Of a DNA stretch of 64,000 bases, positions 38,730-44,841 are shown in pieces. The position numbers were made by a program, and so were the translations under genes. Source of the stretch: Butyrivibrio sp. Its GTDB lineage: Bacteria; Bacillota; Clostridia; Lachnospirales; Lachnospiraceae. The notes under the pieces are model-generated. The model ran no database searches. It had not been told where the DNA came from and saw only the letters and a list, made by a program, of their open reading frames with translations. The stretch lies in NCBI GenBank assembly GCA_017535785.1, contig JAFXTN010000037.1, forward strand, positions 372,001 to 436,000, written 5' to 3'. Numbering within the stretch: position 1 is the stretch's first letter; each line of letters starts with the position of its first letter.

Positions 38730-41429
38730 TTATTTATTTATCTTTTCTCTGATCTGTTCATTCGTAGCTTCGATCTCTTCCCACAATTCCCGCGCCGACA
38801 TCCTGATAGCGCCCGATCCGAACACGATGATCTGCTCGATAGCGTCGGAAGTTGCGACTTTGACGCGGTATTTTTTACTTATGATATGAGCGGCTTTTTC
38901 TATGTACTGATCCGCGGTCTCGGCTTCTTTTGTATAAATGACAGTGAGATTGCCCTGCTTCTCGACGTGCTCCTTGCCGCCGCGAACCCTGTAGGCGTCA
39001 AATACCAGGATGAGTTCCTCTCTACGGTAGCCCTGGAAATTGGACAAGATATCGATAAGAGAATCCCTGGCCGCCTTGATGTCGGTCATTGCGAGGTCTT
39101 TTAGCTTAGGAGAAGCATAGATAATATTGTATCCGTCTATCAAAAGAAATTCCTTATTCGGATCTTCGTCCTTCTTGCCCTGATTGCTGTGCTTTTTCTC
39201 TTTTTCCTGCTCAACTTCATAATCCCTTACGCTTTCATCCGGGGTAAAAGAGCTTTCGTCAAATTCCGTTTTGGAGTTTCCGACTCTGGGCTTTACCTTT
39301 CCGTAGGTCCTTTCAAAGATAGCCTTGAGCTCATCCTCCGCAGCAAAGTAGTCTTTTTGCTTCTCGGAAAAAGAGCGGGTATCTTCCTTGGATTCTCTTC
39401 TTGCCTGAAGCTTGCGAAGAGCCTCCATATCTATGTTGTCGACAAGATCCGTTGAAGCGCTGTTTGAAGAATCCTTGCTCCAGCCGGTGTCTACGTGCAT
39501 GTGCCCTCTGACTTCATCCCAAGGAATGATCGTAGCAGCTCCGTGCTGGCAAAAAACAGAAGATGACGGATTATCCGTATCAAGATCGGGATAGTAGTCA
39601 TATTCTTCGAGAACTTCCTCAGTGTTGTGGCAGGGGCTGTAGCCGCTGAGCGTTGTGAAGATACGTCCCTCGCCGTGAGTGTAGGATGACAGCTCCTGAG
39701 CGTAATTTCCAAGGCAAGCCACAGGGACTGTACCTGTTATCACGGAAAAAGAGCCTTCTATGGTAGGAACAGATACGGTGCCGTTCATTCGTTGCATGTC
39801 ATTGAGGGCACGTCCCACGCTGTCTCCGGGGATCTCAAGTCTGTATTCGAGAATCGGTTCGAGCAAAACAGAATCGGCCTGCATAAGTCCCTGCCTTACG
39901 GCTCTGTAGGTGGCCTGTCTGAAATCGCCGCCCTCTGTGTGCTTTTCGTGAGCTCTTCCTGCGATGAGTGTGATCTTTACATCAGTAAGCTCGGAACCTG
40001 TGAGGACTCCGAGATGCTTTTTTTCCGCAAGGTGAGTGAGGATGAGCCTCTGCCAGTTGAGCGCAAGCTCATCTGTACTACAATTACTGTCAAAAGAGAT
40101 CCCGCTTCCGGGTTCTGTCGGCTCAATAAGAAGATGCACTTCGGCATAGTGGCGGAGCGGCTCAAAGTGGCCTACGCCTTCGACGGGGCCTGCGATAGTT
40201 TCTTTATATACGATGTGCGCAGGTCCAAAGTCTGCGTCTATATCAAATCTTGTCTTTAATATATGGCGAAGGATTTCCTTTTGAACTTCGCCCATTACAC
40301 GAACCTCTATAGATTTAGTCTCTTCCGAGAAAGAAACGCGGAGCATGGGCTCCTCTTCCTCGAGATTTTTAAGGTCGTTGTAGACGGTGATGGGATTGAT
40401 ATCCTCGGGAAGTAGAAGTGCGCAGGAAAGGATCGGATGAAGGACCTCCGATACAGTGTCGCCTTCAAGGCTTCCAAGGCCTGCTCCGGGAGAAGTACTC
40501 TTTAATCCCGTGACAGAACATATCATTCCGGCTTCCGCGGTTTGCACCGCTTCAAATTTATCACCTGCGTATATCCTTATCTGATCGACCTTATCATCGC
40601 CGATGACATCTCTTACGTGAAGAGTTCCGCTTGTTATCTTCATGTGAGTCAGTCTGTTTCCCGAAGGATCACGGCTTATCTTAAATACTCTGGCACCGAA
40701 GGGGGCATCGGCCACAGCTTTTCCTTCTGATGATCCGGAGCCGGTACCTATGAACGGAGCAAGCTCCGATACGAGATCCATAAGCTCTTTTACCCCTTCC
40801 GATCTAAGGGCGGAGCCAAAGAGAATGGGGAAGCATTCTCTGTTTTTTACAAGAGTGTAGACGTCGGATTGCTCTATCTTTTTCCCATTTAGATAATCTG
40901 AGAGAAGCGCTTCATTACACATGGCGAGCTCTTCCCGGATATCGTGATCGTCAATACCGCTACTTAGATCAATGCATGATGAAGAAAGCGAAGACCTTAT
41001 ATCCTCAAGGCAGCGCTCTTTGTCAGCAAGTGGCTGATCCATCTTATTTACGAATATGACTGTTGGAATGTTGTAGTGCTTAAGAAGCTTATACAGGAGC
41101 TTTACCTGTCCCGTCACGCCGTCTGCGGCGCTTATCATAAGGATAGCGATATCAAGCACCTGAAGCGTTCTCTCCATCTCCGGAGAAAAATCGGTATGAC
41201 CCGGAGTGTCGAGAAGATCGAATCTGGTTTCGTTATATTCAAATACAGCCTGCTTGGAAAAGATGGTTATCCCGCGGGCTCTTTCAAGTTCGTATGTGTC
41301 AAGAAAAGTGTCCTTGTGGTCGACTCTTCCTGCTTTTCTGATGGCTCCGGACAAGAACAGTATCGCTTCGGAGAGCGTCGTCTTTCCGGCATCAACGTGG
41401 GCCAGTATGCCCATTGTCAGGTTGTGCAT
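38730..41429 (-). CDS. fusion of TetM/EF-G-like translational GTPase with Rae1/YacP-type NYN nuclease domain
   Basis: An 899-residue protein. Residues 1 to about 650 are a translational GTPase of the ribosomal-protection group: G1 AHVDAGKTT, G2 RGITI, G3 DTPGH, G4 NKMDQ, G5 GSALR, then domains II-V including SFSEETKSIEVRVMGEVQKEI. A charged linker follows, and the last 150 residues are a complete NYN/PIN-like domain: FLLIDGYNIIYA, LILVFDAYRV, KEAETADQYIEK and VATSDAIEQIIVFGSGA, closely resembling B. subtilis YacP (Rae1), which cuts mRNA in the ribosomal A site. All four acidic positions are kept. The start at 41429 has GGAAGGA upstream. An earlier in-frame start lies outside it. The drug-resistance label of the GTPase half should not be assumed. 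Confidence 0.9.
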   Translation of the reverse strand: MHNLTMGILAHVDAGKTTLSEAILFLSGAIRKAGRVDHKDTFLDTYELERARGITIFSKQAVFEYNETRFDLLDTPGHTDFSPEMERTLQVLDIAILMISAADGVTGQVKLLYKLLKHYNIPTVIFVNKMDQPLADKERCLEDIRSSLSSSCIDLSSGIDDHDIREELAMCNEALLSDYLNGKKIEQSDVYTLVKNRECFPILFGSALRSEGVKELMDLVSELAPFIGTGSGSSEGKAVADAPFGARVFKISRDPSGNRLTHMKITSGTLHVRDVIGDDKVDQIRIYAGDKFEAVQTAEAGMICSVTGLKSTSPGAGLGSLEGDTVSEVLHPILSCALLLPEDINPITVYNDLKNLEEEEPMLRVSFSEETKSIEVRVMGEVQKEILRHILKTRFDIDADFGPAHIVYKETIAGPVEGVGHFEPLRHYAEVHLLIEPTEPGSGISFDSNCSTDELALNWQRLILTHLAEKKHLGVLTGSELTDVKITLIAGRAHEKHTEGGDFRQATYRAVRQGLMQADSVLLEPILEYRLEIPGDSVGRALNDMQRMNGTVSVPTIEGSFSVITGTVPVACLGNYAQELSSYTHGEGRIFTTLSGYSPCHNTEEVLEEYDYYPDLDTDNPSSSVFCQHGAATIIPWDEVRGHMHVDTGWSKDSSNSASTDLVDNIDMEALRKLQARRESKEDTRSFSEKQKDYFAAEDELKAIFERTYGKVKPRVGNSKTEFDESSFTPDESVRDYEVEQEKEKKHSNQGKKDEDPNKEFLLIDGYNIIYASPKLKDLAMTDIKAARDSLIDILSNFQGYRREELILVFDAYRVRGGKEHVEKQGNLTVIYTKEAETADQYIEKAAHIISKKYRVKVATSDAIEQIIVFGSGAIRMSARELWEEIEATNEQIREKINK

Positions 41430-41535
41430 AATAATACATCCTTCCGTAAAAACAAATGGCATCTTTTATTATGCATTATATCGGGCAGGGTAGTAAACAA
41501 TTATTGCGGAAAGCGTGATTATAGCCCGAAGTATC

Positions 41536-42210: not shown

Positions 42211-42689
42211 GATTATCTGATAACAGGAAAACGGTGCAAAGTAAACTTCTTATGACTTTCTTAAGATTTGCGGCAGACTTTCTTAAGTTTGGACTAAAGC
42301 TATTTACATTGCTTTTTTGCGGTGATAATCTACGCTCATCGGAAACGTGAACACGACAACCTGTTTTTACATATCATCACGTCGCGCAGGACGATCGTTC
42401 TGCATTGCTCATTTTCGGAGCAATTTTCCAGACACCAGCTTGTACGGATTCATCTTGGCAACCTGTTTTAGAATACTTGTTTACTTACACATCTATGCGC
42501 GGGTGTGGGATTCCCGACGCTCTTTCGTTCCGGAAGGCCTTGGCAGGGCGGATAAACTGCCGGAGCTTACTGTGAATGTCTATAAATCCTACAAGTTGGT
42601 GAATAATAAAAAATCTTTTCAGACCGAAATCCTGATGATATCATAATGGTAAAAAGAAGACCATTATTATGTCTTGAGAGATTTTGGGT
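42211..42689. other. gene-sparse region upstream of the ECF sigma gene
   Basis: About 480 bp with no convincing gene. It holds two direct copies of GACTTTCTTAAG 22 bp apart (42254, 42276) with a third degenerate copy ahead, a near-perfect 18-bp palindrome (42386-42403, GCAGGACGA/TCGTTCTGC), and an 8-bp stem ATAATGGT/ACCATTAT (42643-42667) just before the sigma gene. The open frame 42347-42646 has no ribosome binding site and no recognisable domain. Confidence 0.5.
42254..42287 (+). repeat. direct repeats, possible response-regulator site
   Basis: GACTTTCTTAAG occurs at 42254-42265 and 42276-42287, two helical turns apart. A looser ACTTCTTATG begins at 42245. The spacing suits OmpR/PhoB-type dimers bound in tandem. 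Confidence 0.45.
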
Positions 42690-43259
42690 ATGGATCCTGA
42701 TAAAAAAACACTTCCAACTGACGACGAATTATATAACGGATATTTAGGCGGAAACGCACAGGCGGGCGATGAGCTTATGCTTCGCTACGGTGATGCGCTT
42801 ACGGCTTATCTTTTTTCATTTATAGGTGATCATCATGATGCCGAGGATCTGATGCTCGATTCATTTGCATCTATACTTGTTCGTAAACCCAAGATCGGAG
42901 AGGGCTGCTTTAAGGCATATTTATTTAAGACCGCCAGACATAAGGCGTGCCGCCTCTGGAGAAAAAAGCTTAAGCAAAACGAGTTCAGTCTTCCCGATGA
43001 CATAATCTCGGAAGAAGTTTCCCCCGAGAGAAAGACAGTTATTGATGAAAATATCAGTGCACTTCACAAGTGCCTGAATCTCATACCTACGCAGTACAGA
43101 GAGGCGCTTTGGCTTAAATATGCTATGGATCTGAGCTACGATCAGGCCGCGCAGATCATGGCCTGCAGTAGAAAGAAGATCGACAATCTTCTCATGAACG
43201 GGAAGAAGACACTTAGGAAAGAGCTTGAAAGAGAAGGAATAACACGCTATGAGATCTGA
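42690..43259 (+). CDS. ECF-type RNA polymerase sigma factor
   Basis: A 189-residue sigma-70 family protein with only regions 2 and 4. Region 2 covers DELYNGYLGGNAQAGDELML through GDHHDAEDLMLDSFASIL and FKAYLFKTARHKACRLWRKK. Region 4 is LIPTQYREALWLKYAMDLSYDQAA plus the recognition helix CSRKKIDNLLMNGKKTLRKEL. ATG 42690 is preferred over the TTG at 42684. It overlaps by 11 bp a small membrane protein gene that is a candidate regulator, and a PrsW-type protease gene follows in the same operon. Confidence 0.92.
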   Translation: MDPDKKTLPTDDELYNGYLGGNAQAGDELMLRYGDALTAYLFSFIGDHHDAEDLMLDSFASILVRKPKIGEGCFKAYLFKTARHKACRLWRKKLKQNEFSLPDDIISEEVSPERKTVIDENISALHKCLNLIPTQYREALWLKYAMDLSYDQAAQIMACSRKKIDNLLMNGKKTLRKELEREGITRYEI

Positions 43260-43563
43260 GGAAAGAGTACAGGAACTGCACCGCAAAATGGCTGTGCTTC
43301 AAAAAAAGAAAGCGCAAAAAGCGATCATGATACAGACAGCAGTGGCTTTTGCTGCGTGCTTGGCTCTGGCGATAACATCGGCTGTTATGATAGCCCGTCT
43401 TCCGGCTGCTTATTCAGTGGGCGTGCCGGGCAGCATGACGGGAAGTGTCTTTGCTGAGAACGGAGCTCTCGGATATATCATGGTTGCGATCATTTCATTG
43501 TGTCTTGGAATTGCATTTACACTTTTTTGCGTTCTTCTGAGAAAAAGAATGAAGGAAGAATGA
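43249..43563 (+). CDS. small two-span membrane protein, candidate anti-sigma factor (paralogue 1)
   Basis: A 104-residue protein with a short cytoplasmic N-terminus (EERVQELHRKMAVLQKKKAQK), a membrane segment (about 25-48), a short extracellular loop, a second segment (about 72-97) and a charged C-terminus. Its start lies inside the end of the sigma gene, which is typical of anti-sigma factors. It matches in length and pattern the protein at 44959-45273. No known anti-sigma domain is recognisable, so that role is inferred from position and from the PrsW gene downstream. Confidence 0.75.
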   Translation: MRSEERVQELHRKMAVLQKKKAQKAIMIQTAVAFAACLALAITSAVMIARLPAAYSVGVPGSMTGSVFAENGALGYIMVAIISLCLGIAFTLFCVLLRKRMKEE

Positions 43564-43567
43564 GTCT

Positions 43568-44215
43568 ATGATCGATGTTATTGACACCGCCGTTCAGATA
43601 GTAGTACTTCTTATCTGTCTGGCGATCTCGATGTATTTCATAGTTAAGACCAAAGAAAAATCATGGGTGCTCATGCACCTGTATTATTTGAGCTATCTTC
43701 TTGGCAATCTGTATTGGCAGGCAGTTGCCTTTTATTACGGGGCCACACCGGAGATTTCGGTCGTTTCAGACCTTAGCTGGTATGCTTCGTATATCTTTCT
43801 GTGCCTTTTCCTTTTTATGGAATGTGAAAAGCATCTGGGAAAAGATTTTAATTCCAAAGCTAAATGCACAGGGATAAAGCGCATTATCCCGTTTCTTCCG
43901 ATCCCCTTCGTGTCGGGGATGGCTCTTTTGTATATGAAATACGGAAAGATTGTAAGTAACGTTATATATGCGATACTGATGGCAGTCCTTTTGTATAATG
44001 CGATCCGTAATATTCTTTGCTTCAATGACAGATATATACGTTACATCAGCTTCGTCGTAATACTTAATTGTTTAGCTGAGTATGGCTCATGGACGTTTTC
44101 TTTTTATTACTATGATATAAGTACCTGGGCCAATCCGTACTATTGGTTCAATGCGCTTATAGCGGTCATTTTCCTTATTTATTTGATAGTAAAAAAGAGG
44201 GAGGTGGCAAGATGA
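43568..44215 (+). CDS. multi-span membrane protein of the sigma/PrsW operon, function unknown
   Basis: A 215-residue protein with about seven membrane segments and almost no soluble part: VVLLICLAISMYFIV, LYYLSYLLGNLYWQAVAFYYG, WYASYIFLCLFLFME, IIPFLPIPFVSGMALLYMKYG, VIYAILMAVLLYNAI, ISFVVILNCLAEYGSW and WFNALIAVIFLIYLIV. Many aromatic residues lie in the segments. No family was recognised. It lies 4 bp after the small membrane protein and overlaps the PrsW-like gene by 4 bp, so it may be a sensor for this circuit. Confidence 0.75.
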   Translation: MIDVIDTAVQIVVLLICLAISMYFIVKTKEKSWVLMHLYYLSYLLGNLYWQAVAFYYGATPEISVVSDLSWYASYIFLCLFLFMECEKHLGKDFNSKAKCTGIKRIIPFLPIPFVSGMALLYMKYGKIVSNVIYAILMAVLLYNAIRNILCFNDRYIRYISFVVILNCLAEYGSWTFSFYYYDISTWANPYYWFNALIAVIFLIYLIVKKREVAR

Positions 44216-44841
44216 CATACATGGAAAACACGTTCATCTGTCTGGCGGCGCCGCTCTTTTTGGCAATCCTTTGTCTTAAGGAAAGTTGGCGAAGGGCGCT
44301 TACATTTCTTCTTGCGGGCATGATATGTTGCCTTTTATCGGCATATGTCAGCAGCTTTTTTGCTGCGGTCTTTAATGTCGACCATGCGACGGCATCTCAC
44401 GCTGTGGCGCCGGCTGTTGAAGAATGTATCAAGTTTTTGCCGATCCTTTTTTACTTAGTCATATTTGAAGCGGGAAAAGAGGATTCGATAAACGGAGTGA
44501 TCCTTGTATCCGTTGGCTTTGCGACATTTGAAAATGTATGCTTTTTGACTTCGTACGGAACAAAAGATCTTTTGAGCATCATGCTGAGGGGCTTTGGAAC
44601 CGGTGCGATGCATGTTCTTTGCGGTACGGCGATAGCGATAGGTCTTTTCTCTCTTTGGGATAGGGCTTGGATCAGAGTGATGGGAACCGTTGCAGCTTTG
44701 TGCTTTACGATAACCTTCCATGCGATCTTCAATATCATGGTCAGCACAAACGGTATCAGTCTTTGGATAGCAAGTGCGATCCCGATGGCGCTTATTATCA
44801 TTGTTTTTGCGCTTTCTCAGAAAAATATCGGACTAAAATGA
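44212..44841 (+). CDS. PrsW-family intramembrane metalloprotease
   Basis: A 209-residue polytopic protein. The conserved PrsW features are present: EExxK (E70, E71, K74 in APAVEECIKFLP), FATFENV (E107), RGFGTGAMHVLCG (H134) and HAIFN (H170, N174). In B. subtilis, PrsW cuts the anti-sigma RsiW and releases sigma-W. Presence in an operon with an ECF sigma and small membrane proteins strongly suggests the same logic. The start in an ATGA overlap has GGGAGG upstream. Confidence 0.88.
   Translation: MTYMENTFICLAAPLFLAILCLKESWRRALTFLLAGMICCLLSAYVSSFFAAVFNVDHATASHAVAPAVEECIKFLPILFYLVIFEAGKEDSINGVILVSVGFATFENVCFLTSYGTKDLLSIMLRGFGTGAMHVLCGTAIAIGLFSLWDRAWIRVMGTVAALCFTITFHAIFNIMVSTNGISLWIASAIPMALIIIVFALSQKNIGLK

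Follow-up and report, generated by a model that had tools for sequence, protein, structure and literature searches.

Bacillus subtilis Rae1 (YacP) is described as a translation-dependent endonuclease that acts in the ribosomal A site (PMC6613710, PMC10100781). A Tet GTPase joined to a YacP-like NYN domain was reported in 2015, in one sentence covering ten Clostridiales species, in a paper that places the fusion in the Tet subfamily and suggests a ribonuclease (RNase)-based resistance mechanism for it (Atkinson 2015, PMC4342817). In the parts of the literature searched this is the only description of the fusion, and no functional test of it was found there; Leroy 2017 and Condon 2018, on Rae1, may already discuss it. 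Because the architecture is already in print, what is new here is the evidence for replacement and not the fusion itself. We have analyzed such a gene in a 64 000-nucleotide (nt) stretch of DNA from a Butyrivibrio sp. (assembly GCA_017535785.1, contig JAFXTN010000037.1, positions 372,001 to 436,000 of the forward strand), referred to as the window. With a probability of about 0.6, we consider that the fusion is the Rae1 of this bacterium, a ribosome-dependent messenger RNA (mRNA) endonuclease delivered by the attached Tet/EF-G-like GTPase, and that it replaces the free enzyme.

The window protein belongs with the Tet-NYN proteins of the 2015 paper, having a Tet-like GTPase and a YacP-like NYN domain in one Clostridiales protein. 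The main-text account there is without the domain IV signature, the single branch of origin, the replacement and remnants of yacP, and the loss of the tail that are described below. The protein shares the acidic positions of its NYN domain with B. subtilis Rae1 (5mq8, 5mq9) and is the only YacP found in its genome, but it is fused, lies outside the cysS-mrnC-rlmB-sigH operon and lacks the C-terminal tail. Like Tet(O) and Tet(M) (4v6v, 3j9y) it has domains G to V, and it is ~30% identical to Tet(W)/Tet(O) records; it differs from them in the tip of domain IV, a C-terminal extension and the added nuclease. It also has the G1-G5 motifs, the PGH histidine and the domains II-V of EF-G-type translational GTPases. 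The GTPase-only relatives, which in plasmid records (of Ligilactobacillus salivarius, for example) carry names such as 'translation factor GTPase family protein' or TetM-family, share the domain IV signature in the 15 Clostridia proteins aligned, but have no nuclease and lie on the far side of a fully supported branch.

The gene is a single uninterrupted open reading frame (ORF) of 910 amino acids (aa) on the minus strand (38730-41462) with no internal stops. We prefer the ATG at 41429, residue 12 of the 910-aa reading, because the sequence GGAAGGA ends 9 nt upstream of it and the consensus of the relatives begins about there. This gives a product of 899 aa (38730-41429, minus strand) and agrees with the start chosen in an earlier sequence-only reading of this DNA. 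Residue numbers throughout are those of the 910-aa reading. Both parts lie within one ORF in three genomes of the same genus (L062-L064) and at 80 out of 80 named loci, these being the best 80 of at least 590 confirmed relatives and therefore, as the top-scoring ones, biased toward the fused type; a contig end truncates two of them (L215 and L245). The sequence-only reading allowed that the fusion might be an assembly join or a frameshift between two genes. Such an artefact is ruled out by the continuous frame, the three same-genus genomes and the 80 loci, and the fusion is a genuine gene. The closest named contig among the relatives kept is a Butyrivibrio metagenome-assembled genome (87% identity in the best segment), and the names among the best 80 loci include Butyrivibrio proteoclasticus, Anaerovorax odorimutans, Fusibacter sp. 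3D3, Intestinimonas butyriciproducens and Eubacterium xylanophilum. The features of the gene, all on the minus strand, are as follows.

38730..41429, minus: fusion gene for a Tet/EF-G-like translational GTPase and a Rae1/YacP nuclease (ORF reading, Pfam, ribosome-binding-site position).
40755..41420, minus: G domain, residues 15-236, with G1-G5 and the PGH histidine (translation, Pfam, alignment).
40224..40700, minus: EF-G domains II and III, residues 255-324 and 347-413 (Pfam).
39876..40214, minus: EF-G domain IV, residues 417-529 (Pfam).
39915..39959, minus: domain IV segment aligned with loop III of TetO/TetM, residues 502-516, GRAHEKHTEGGDFRQ, where TetO has GLYYSPVSTPADFRL (alignment).
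39624..39869, minus: EF-G domain V, residues 532-613 (Pfam).
39495..39623, minus: C-terminal extension of domain V, 43 residues, 614-656 (alignment).
39147..39494, minus: charged variable linker, residues 657-772 (alignment).
39300..39332, minus: conserved linker island ELKAIFERTYG, residues 711-721 (alignment).
38733..39146, minus: NYN_YacP/Rae1 nuclease domain, residues 773-910, with the C-terminal tail missing (Pfam, PDB match, alignment).

Pfam profiles match from the N- to the C-terminus in the order GTP_EFTU (15-236, 1.8e-51), EF-G_D2, EFG_III, EFG_IV (417-529), EFG_C (532-613) and NYN_YacP (773-910), so the GTPase and the nuclease occur in one protein in the order foreseen from the sequence. 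The motifs read there by eye are likewise all present in the translation, i.e. AHVDAGKTT, RGIT, DTPGH, NKMD and GSAL, which we take to be G1 to G5, and LLIDGYN, VFDAYRV, ETADQYIEK, ATSDAIEQ and GSGAIR in the nuclease. The PGH histidine H89 is kept in 56 of 57 aligned rows. The NYN_YacP match (PF05991, 3.1e-47) scores 161.1 bits with a cut-off of 24.6, and the nearest chains in the PDB are those of B. subtilis YacP, 5mq8 (1.2e-29) and 5mq9 (~1e-29). D776, N779, D822, D851 and D873, presumably the catalytic positions of the active site, are invariant in 63/63 fused and 38/38 stand-alone rows. The nuclease had been called a full Rae1 domain. It is a NYN_YacP domain, but it is not full, as the match covers positions 1-140 of the 166 in the profile and the tail found in all 38 stand-alone proteins is absent.

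Domain V is followed by an extension of 43 residues in 57 of 57 aligned rows. Around it (39495-39632) C611 (56/57), C638 (57/57), H640 (56/57) and H656 (56/57) are near-invariant and could form a putative metal site; C611, C638 and H656 are common to 15/15 GTPase-only rows. The distance from N613 to the NYN domain ranges from 110 to 186 aa in the 57 rows. The linker is variable apart from an island, ELxxIFERTYG, whose E, I and T positions are jointly kept in 48 of the 57, and which may be a docking motif.

The window genome contains one PF05991 match in total, and no separate yacP was found in this assembly, which is 90.8% complete. The operon cysS-mrnC-rlmB-sigH is kept without yacP, the gap between rlmB and sigH being closed to 3 nt. 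A separate yacP would have spoken against the sequence-only reading, and none was found in this assembly. Stand-alone yacP genes were read at 39 loci, one of which (L104) is a contig-cut fusion; the neighbors are a sigma-factor gene in 33, rlmB in 33, mrnC in 28 and cysS in 24, and six of the eight stand-alone genes of family f1 lie in the cysS-mrnC-rlmB-sigH operon. These operon names were assigned from Pfam, using one representative of each cluster; we take them, sigH in particular, from synteny with B. subtilis. The rlmB loci of 42 fused genomes were read. In 21 of these rlmB adjoins a sigma-factor gene, and in none of the 21 does an intact yacP lie between the two. Matches to yacP (E < 1e-3) were found in three of the 42 loci, the best piece lying in the rlmB-sigH gap each time. 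Two are clear remnants. G170 has a broken yacP in two frames, which are 46 and 64% identical to the intact G199 gene (2.5e-17 and 2.5e-14), and G261 has a C-terminal piece with 44% identity (7e-07). The third, in G244, is weak (48% over 31 aa, 2e-04), with a weaker piece overlapping rlmB. G170 and G199 belong to one genus (g179). In G199 the stand-alone yacP is intact and the GTPase has no match, and G170 has the fusion together with the broken yacP; this pair is a natural comparison. On our reading, the free enzyme would have been lost once the fusion had been gained.

Three samples were searched, comprising 150 genomes of the window's family, 243 of its class and 249 of its phylum. In the family and class samples fused and stand-alone yacP are mutually exclusive apart from one doubtful case, G030, which agrees with a loss of stand-alone yacP from genomes with the fusion. 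In the class sample a second PF05991 match occurs only in G265, G318 and G351, all below the cut-off, and no genome has two above it. Four genomes of the family sample have two YacP matches. G061 and G145 were discounted since in each a single gene appears to have been divided by contig ends, as was G110, where one gene has a split match; the fourth is G030. Among the phylum genomes, two stand-alone copies occur in G530, and G618 has two fragments. The GTPase (E ≤ 1e-60) was not found in any of the 13 genomes of the family sample that have no PF05991 match, and GTPases of the fused clade without a joined NYN domain were seen only in broken or contig-cut frames.

Frames of the size of the fusion are common in the window's family. 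PF05991 is matched in 137 of the 150 genomes, and 125 of 141 rows lie in open frames of at least 800 aa; since G110 has two such rows, this corresponds to 124 of 150 genomes. The class sample gives a match in 162 of 243 genomes; among the 150 matches listed, 79 are of at least 800 aa and 65 of at most 216 aa. The phylum sample has a match in 138 of 249 genomes, with 17 of 140 rows of at least 800 aa. Eleven of these 17 belong to other classes than the window, and eight of them (families f73, f114, f117 and f128) read as single ORFs. Fused and stand-alone genomes are found side by side within each of families f1, f21, f22, f25, f44 and f114. Fusions with broken frames occur in G119, G033, G362, G192 and G333 (G362 and G192 being judged by open frames), part of the GTPase is missing in G115, and G054 has a 249-aa NYN protein with no GTPase match within the stretch read. 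In G033 (L257) a GTPase of 711 aa and a NYN protein of 190 aa lie in overlapping frames; either the gene is naturally split or the frameshift is a sequencing error. Two fusions are longer, with 1076 and 1080 aa (L129, in G110, and L239); the NYN match of L129 is divided in two, pointing to an insertion. A plasmid collection gave two near-full-length matches to the fusion, in records of Monoglobus pectinilyticus and Agathobacter rectalis. Near-full-length matches also occur in two unannotated phage-labelled fecal contigs (MT835563.1 and MT835514.1), which may be contaminating bacterial sequence or transduced DNA.

In a tree of 80 GTPases, 63 fused and 17 GTPase-only proteins fall on opposite sides of one branch with full support (100 in the Shimodaira-Hasegawa-like approximate likelihood-ratio test, SH-aLRT); the tree has no outgroup, and fused rows shorter than 700 aa and GTPase-only rows shorter than 600 aa were left out. 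This suggests one fusion event, provided that the tree is rooted on the side of the GTPase-only proteins. Several independent fusions are not required, since one change suffices. The sequence-only reading had looked to a phylogeny of each half; the GTPase half gives a clear separation, while the NYN half taken alone does not. When six long-branch rows are removed from the 101-row NYN set (95 kept), a quick tree still needs three state changes. Holding the fused and f1 stand-alone sequences together, a group named after seeing a tree, gives a higher likelihood than the quick tree and is not rejected by the approximately unbiased test (p-AU 0.773). L129 and L104 were left out of the NYN set, and the contig-cut L103 was placed in neither class by its E-value. 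The GTPases of families f9, f21, f22, f25, f44, f48, f57 and f65 fall together with some of those of f1. These groupings and the varied neighbors of the fused genes suggest that the fusion gene spread horizontally.

The GTPase-only relatives show 42-48% identity, and in 15 aligned Clostridia proteins the domain IV signature is shared with few changes. Six of seven f1 stand-alone genomes searched have such a relative and G005 has none. One genome, G252, carries two copies (L137 and L138) together with a stand-alone yacP. GTPase-only matches also occur on many plasmid records of L. salivarius; Ligilactobacillus accounts for 33 of 43 matching records, and 17 of 18 of those listed (H3-H20) are annotated as TetM/TetW/TetO/TetS family.

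The C-terminus of the nuclease differs between the fused and free proteins. Stand-alone Rae1 has 38-47 aa after the position of E896 in 38 of 38 rows, where the window protein has 14; this measure comes from the present alignment of stand-alone proteins and not from the literature. Tails of at most 20 aa are found in 20 of 63 fused rows, the window protein included, and in none of the 38 stand-alone rows. Where the fused proteins do have a tail its character is changed, the median net charge of the last 10 residues being −1 in the 43 fused and +2.5 in the 38 stand-alone rows (p 1e-06). Near the tail end, 28 of 38 stand-alone rows carry a hydrophobic-E-x-hydrophobic-R motif, compared with 11 of 63 fused rows. 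R166P is listed among the loss-of-function alleles of B. subtilis rae1 (PMC6613710) and by its number should fall in the tail. The tail may help free Rae1 to bind ribosomes, and attachment to the GTPase may have made it dispensable.

Domain IV has a signature, EPLRHYAEVH / LTGS / GRxHxKHTxGGDFR, that is common to the fused and GTPase-only proteins and absent from TetO. At the position of loop III these proteins have GRxHxKHTxGGDFR in place of GLYYSPVSTPADFR; in the window protein AHEKHTEGG is aligned with the Tet-type YSPVS. H508 is present in 61/62 fused and 15/15 GTPase-only rows and K507 in 59/62 and 15/15, TetO having V and P respectively. The fused consensus line leaves out L128, and the GTPase-only counts leave out L148 and L150, which lack the signature. 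The best NCBIfam match of the window protein is tet_protect, yet it reaches 432.7 bits where the cut-off is 775; six relatives (two fused and four GTPase-only) score 393-448 bits, all under the cut-off.

Several observations weigh against replacement of Rae1 by a fusion of single origin. The tail is kept in 43 of 63 fused rows, no significant difference in its length is seen when all rows are compared (p 0.14), and all of the tail statistics ignore the relatedness of the rows. No sigma-factor gene lies within the flanks read at 21 of the 42 rlmB loci, which leaves the other 21 to bear on the slot, and the remnants show loss of yacP in carriers of the fusion, not the order of events. The doubtful genome G030, with 5% contamination, has the fusion and, at a contig end, a 139-aa YacP fragment. 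In the NYN tree of 101 rows five state changes were needed, and the window genus was placed near stand-alone sequences. No neighbor is shared by the fused genes, with at most six of 63 loci having one cluster in common. Lastly, five genomes (G321, G176, G216, G173 and G202) have a signature-bearing GTPase-only relative and no PF05991 match, and the GTPase can therefore serve a function in the absence of the nuclease; these are 5 of 14 signature-bearing genomes in the class census, G321 and G216 being counted by their absence among the matches listed.

Those five genomes, and the long and variable linker, lend something to the idea that the two halves act separately, with an unrelated translation-factor GTPase and a fusion that merely co-expresses Rae1. 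We consider this unlikely. A GTPase of the fused clade without its nuclease is seen only in damaged or truncated frames, the extension is of one length and the linker has a conserved island, and the tail of the free enzyme is lost or altered in the fusions. The 2015 suggestion, that the GTPase clears a drug such as tetracycline from the ribosome and the nuclease adds an RNase resistance step, fits the EF-G/Tet order of domains, the best NCBIfam match, the TetM/TetW/TetO/TetS labels of relatives in the databases and the placement in the Tet subfamily (PMC4342817). We find it improbable for the window protein, in agreement with the sequence-only reading that this is not simple tetracycline protection. 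All of the tet_protect scores fall far under the cut-off, the tip of domain IV is not of the Tet type, and the presence of fused-size frames in 124 of 150 genomes of the family and the exclusion with stand-alone yacP are unlike an acquired resistance gene. Loop III is reported to be important for displacing tetracycline, but Tet(M) stays active after some changes within it (PMC4750697), and the difference in loop III is therefore not proof against such a role. If the fusion is a GTPase-delivered Rae1, the database names should not be taken to indicate resistance genes without a test.

A further explanation is that the nuclease acts on precursors of ribosomal RNA (rRNA) or transfer RNA, the GTPase recruiting it to (pre-)ribosomes, and that mRNA is not the target. 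The neighbors of stand-alone yacP point that way, with mrnC, whose product has an RNase III domain, at 28 of 39 loci and the rRNA methylase gene rlmB at 33 of 39, as does an earlier proposal of a maturation role cited in PMC4342817. The characterized Rae1 is reported to destabilize mRNAs in a translation-dependent manner (PMC10100781, PMC6613710), and we regard a precursor target as distinctly doubtful.

We return to the fusion as a GTPase-delivered Rae1, for which ribosome binding, the state that is sensed, the sequence of steps and cleavage by the fusion are what we infer. That the protein binds stalled or drug-bound ribosomes and cuts their mRNA, as the sequence-only reading proposed, is likewise a prediction. 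With GTP bound, the GTPase half would dock on a ribosome whose A site is empty or blocked, using the factor-binding site, and would insert the His/Lys-rich tip of its domain IV into the decoding region. Hydrolysis of GTP would release domain IV, allowing the nuclease on its 110-186-residue linker to move into the vacated A site and cut the mRNA, after which the ribosome would be freed for rescue or the message turned over. This cycle, with a GTPase that would clear or probe the A site before admitting the nuclease, is proposed because published Rae1 acts in the A site and the domain IV loops of Tet proteins act at the tetracycline site, as these sources describe them (PMC10100781, PMC6613710, PMC4342817, PMC4750697). 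More tentatively, GTP hydrolysis might time the entry of the tethered nuclease, giving a GTP-gated cutter that senses blocked ribosomes and starts their rescue, that arose once and that displaced free Rae1 by spreading horizontally through several families.

Around the fusion gene, a methyl-accepting chemotaxis gene follows next on the same strand. On the plus strand, 42684-44841 contains in series a sigma-70-type factor, a short ORF, a further ORF and a PrsW-type intramembrane protease, of which Pfam matches the sigma factor and PrsW only.

The GTP-gated cutter would combine in one bacterial chain what eukaryotic no-go decay assigns to separate GTPase and nuclease factors. If the reading of the fusion as a GTPase-delivered Rae1 is correct, many gut and rumen Clostridia would have swapped a free A-site mRNA nuclease for a GTPase-driven one, and a ribosome-clearing type of GTPase would be linked directly to mRNA cleavage. 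It would also provide a testable idea for the role of the nuclease-free Tet-like GTPases in commensals.

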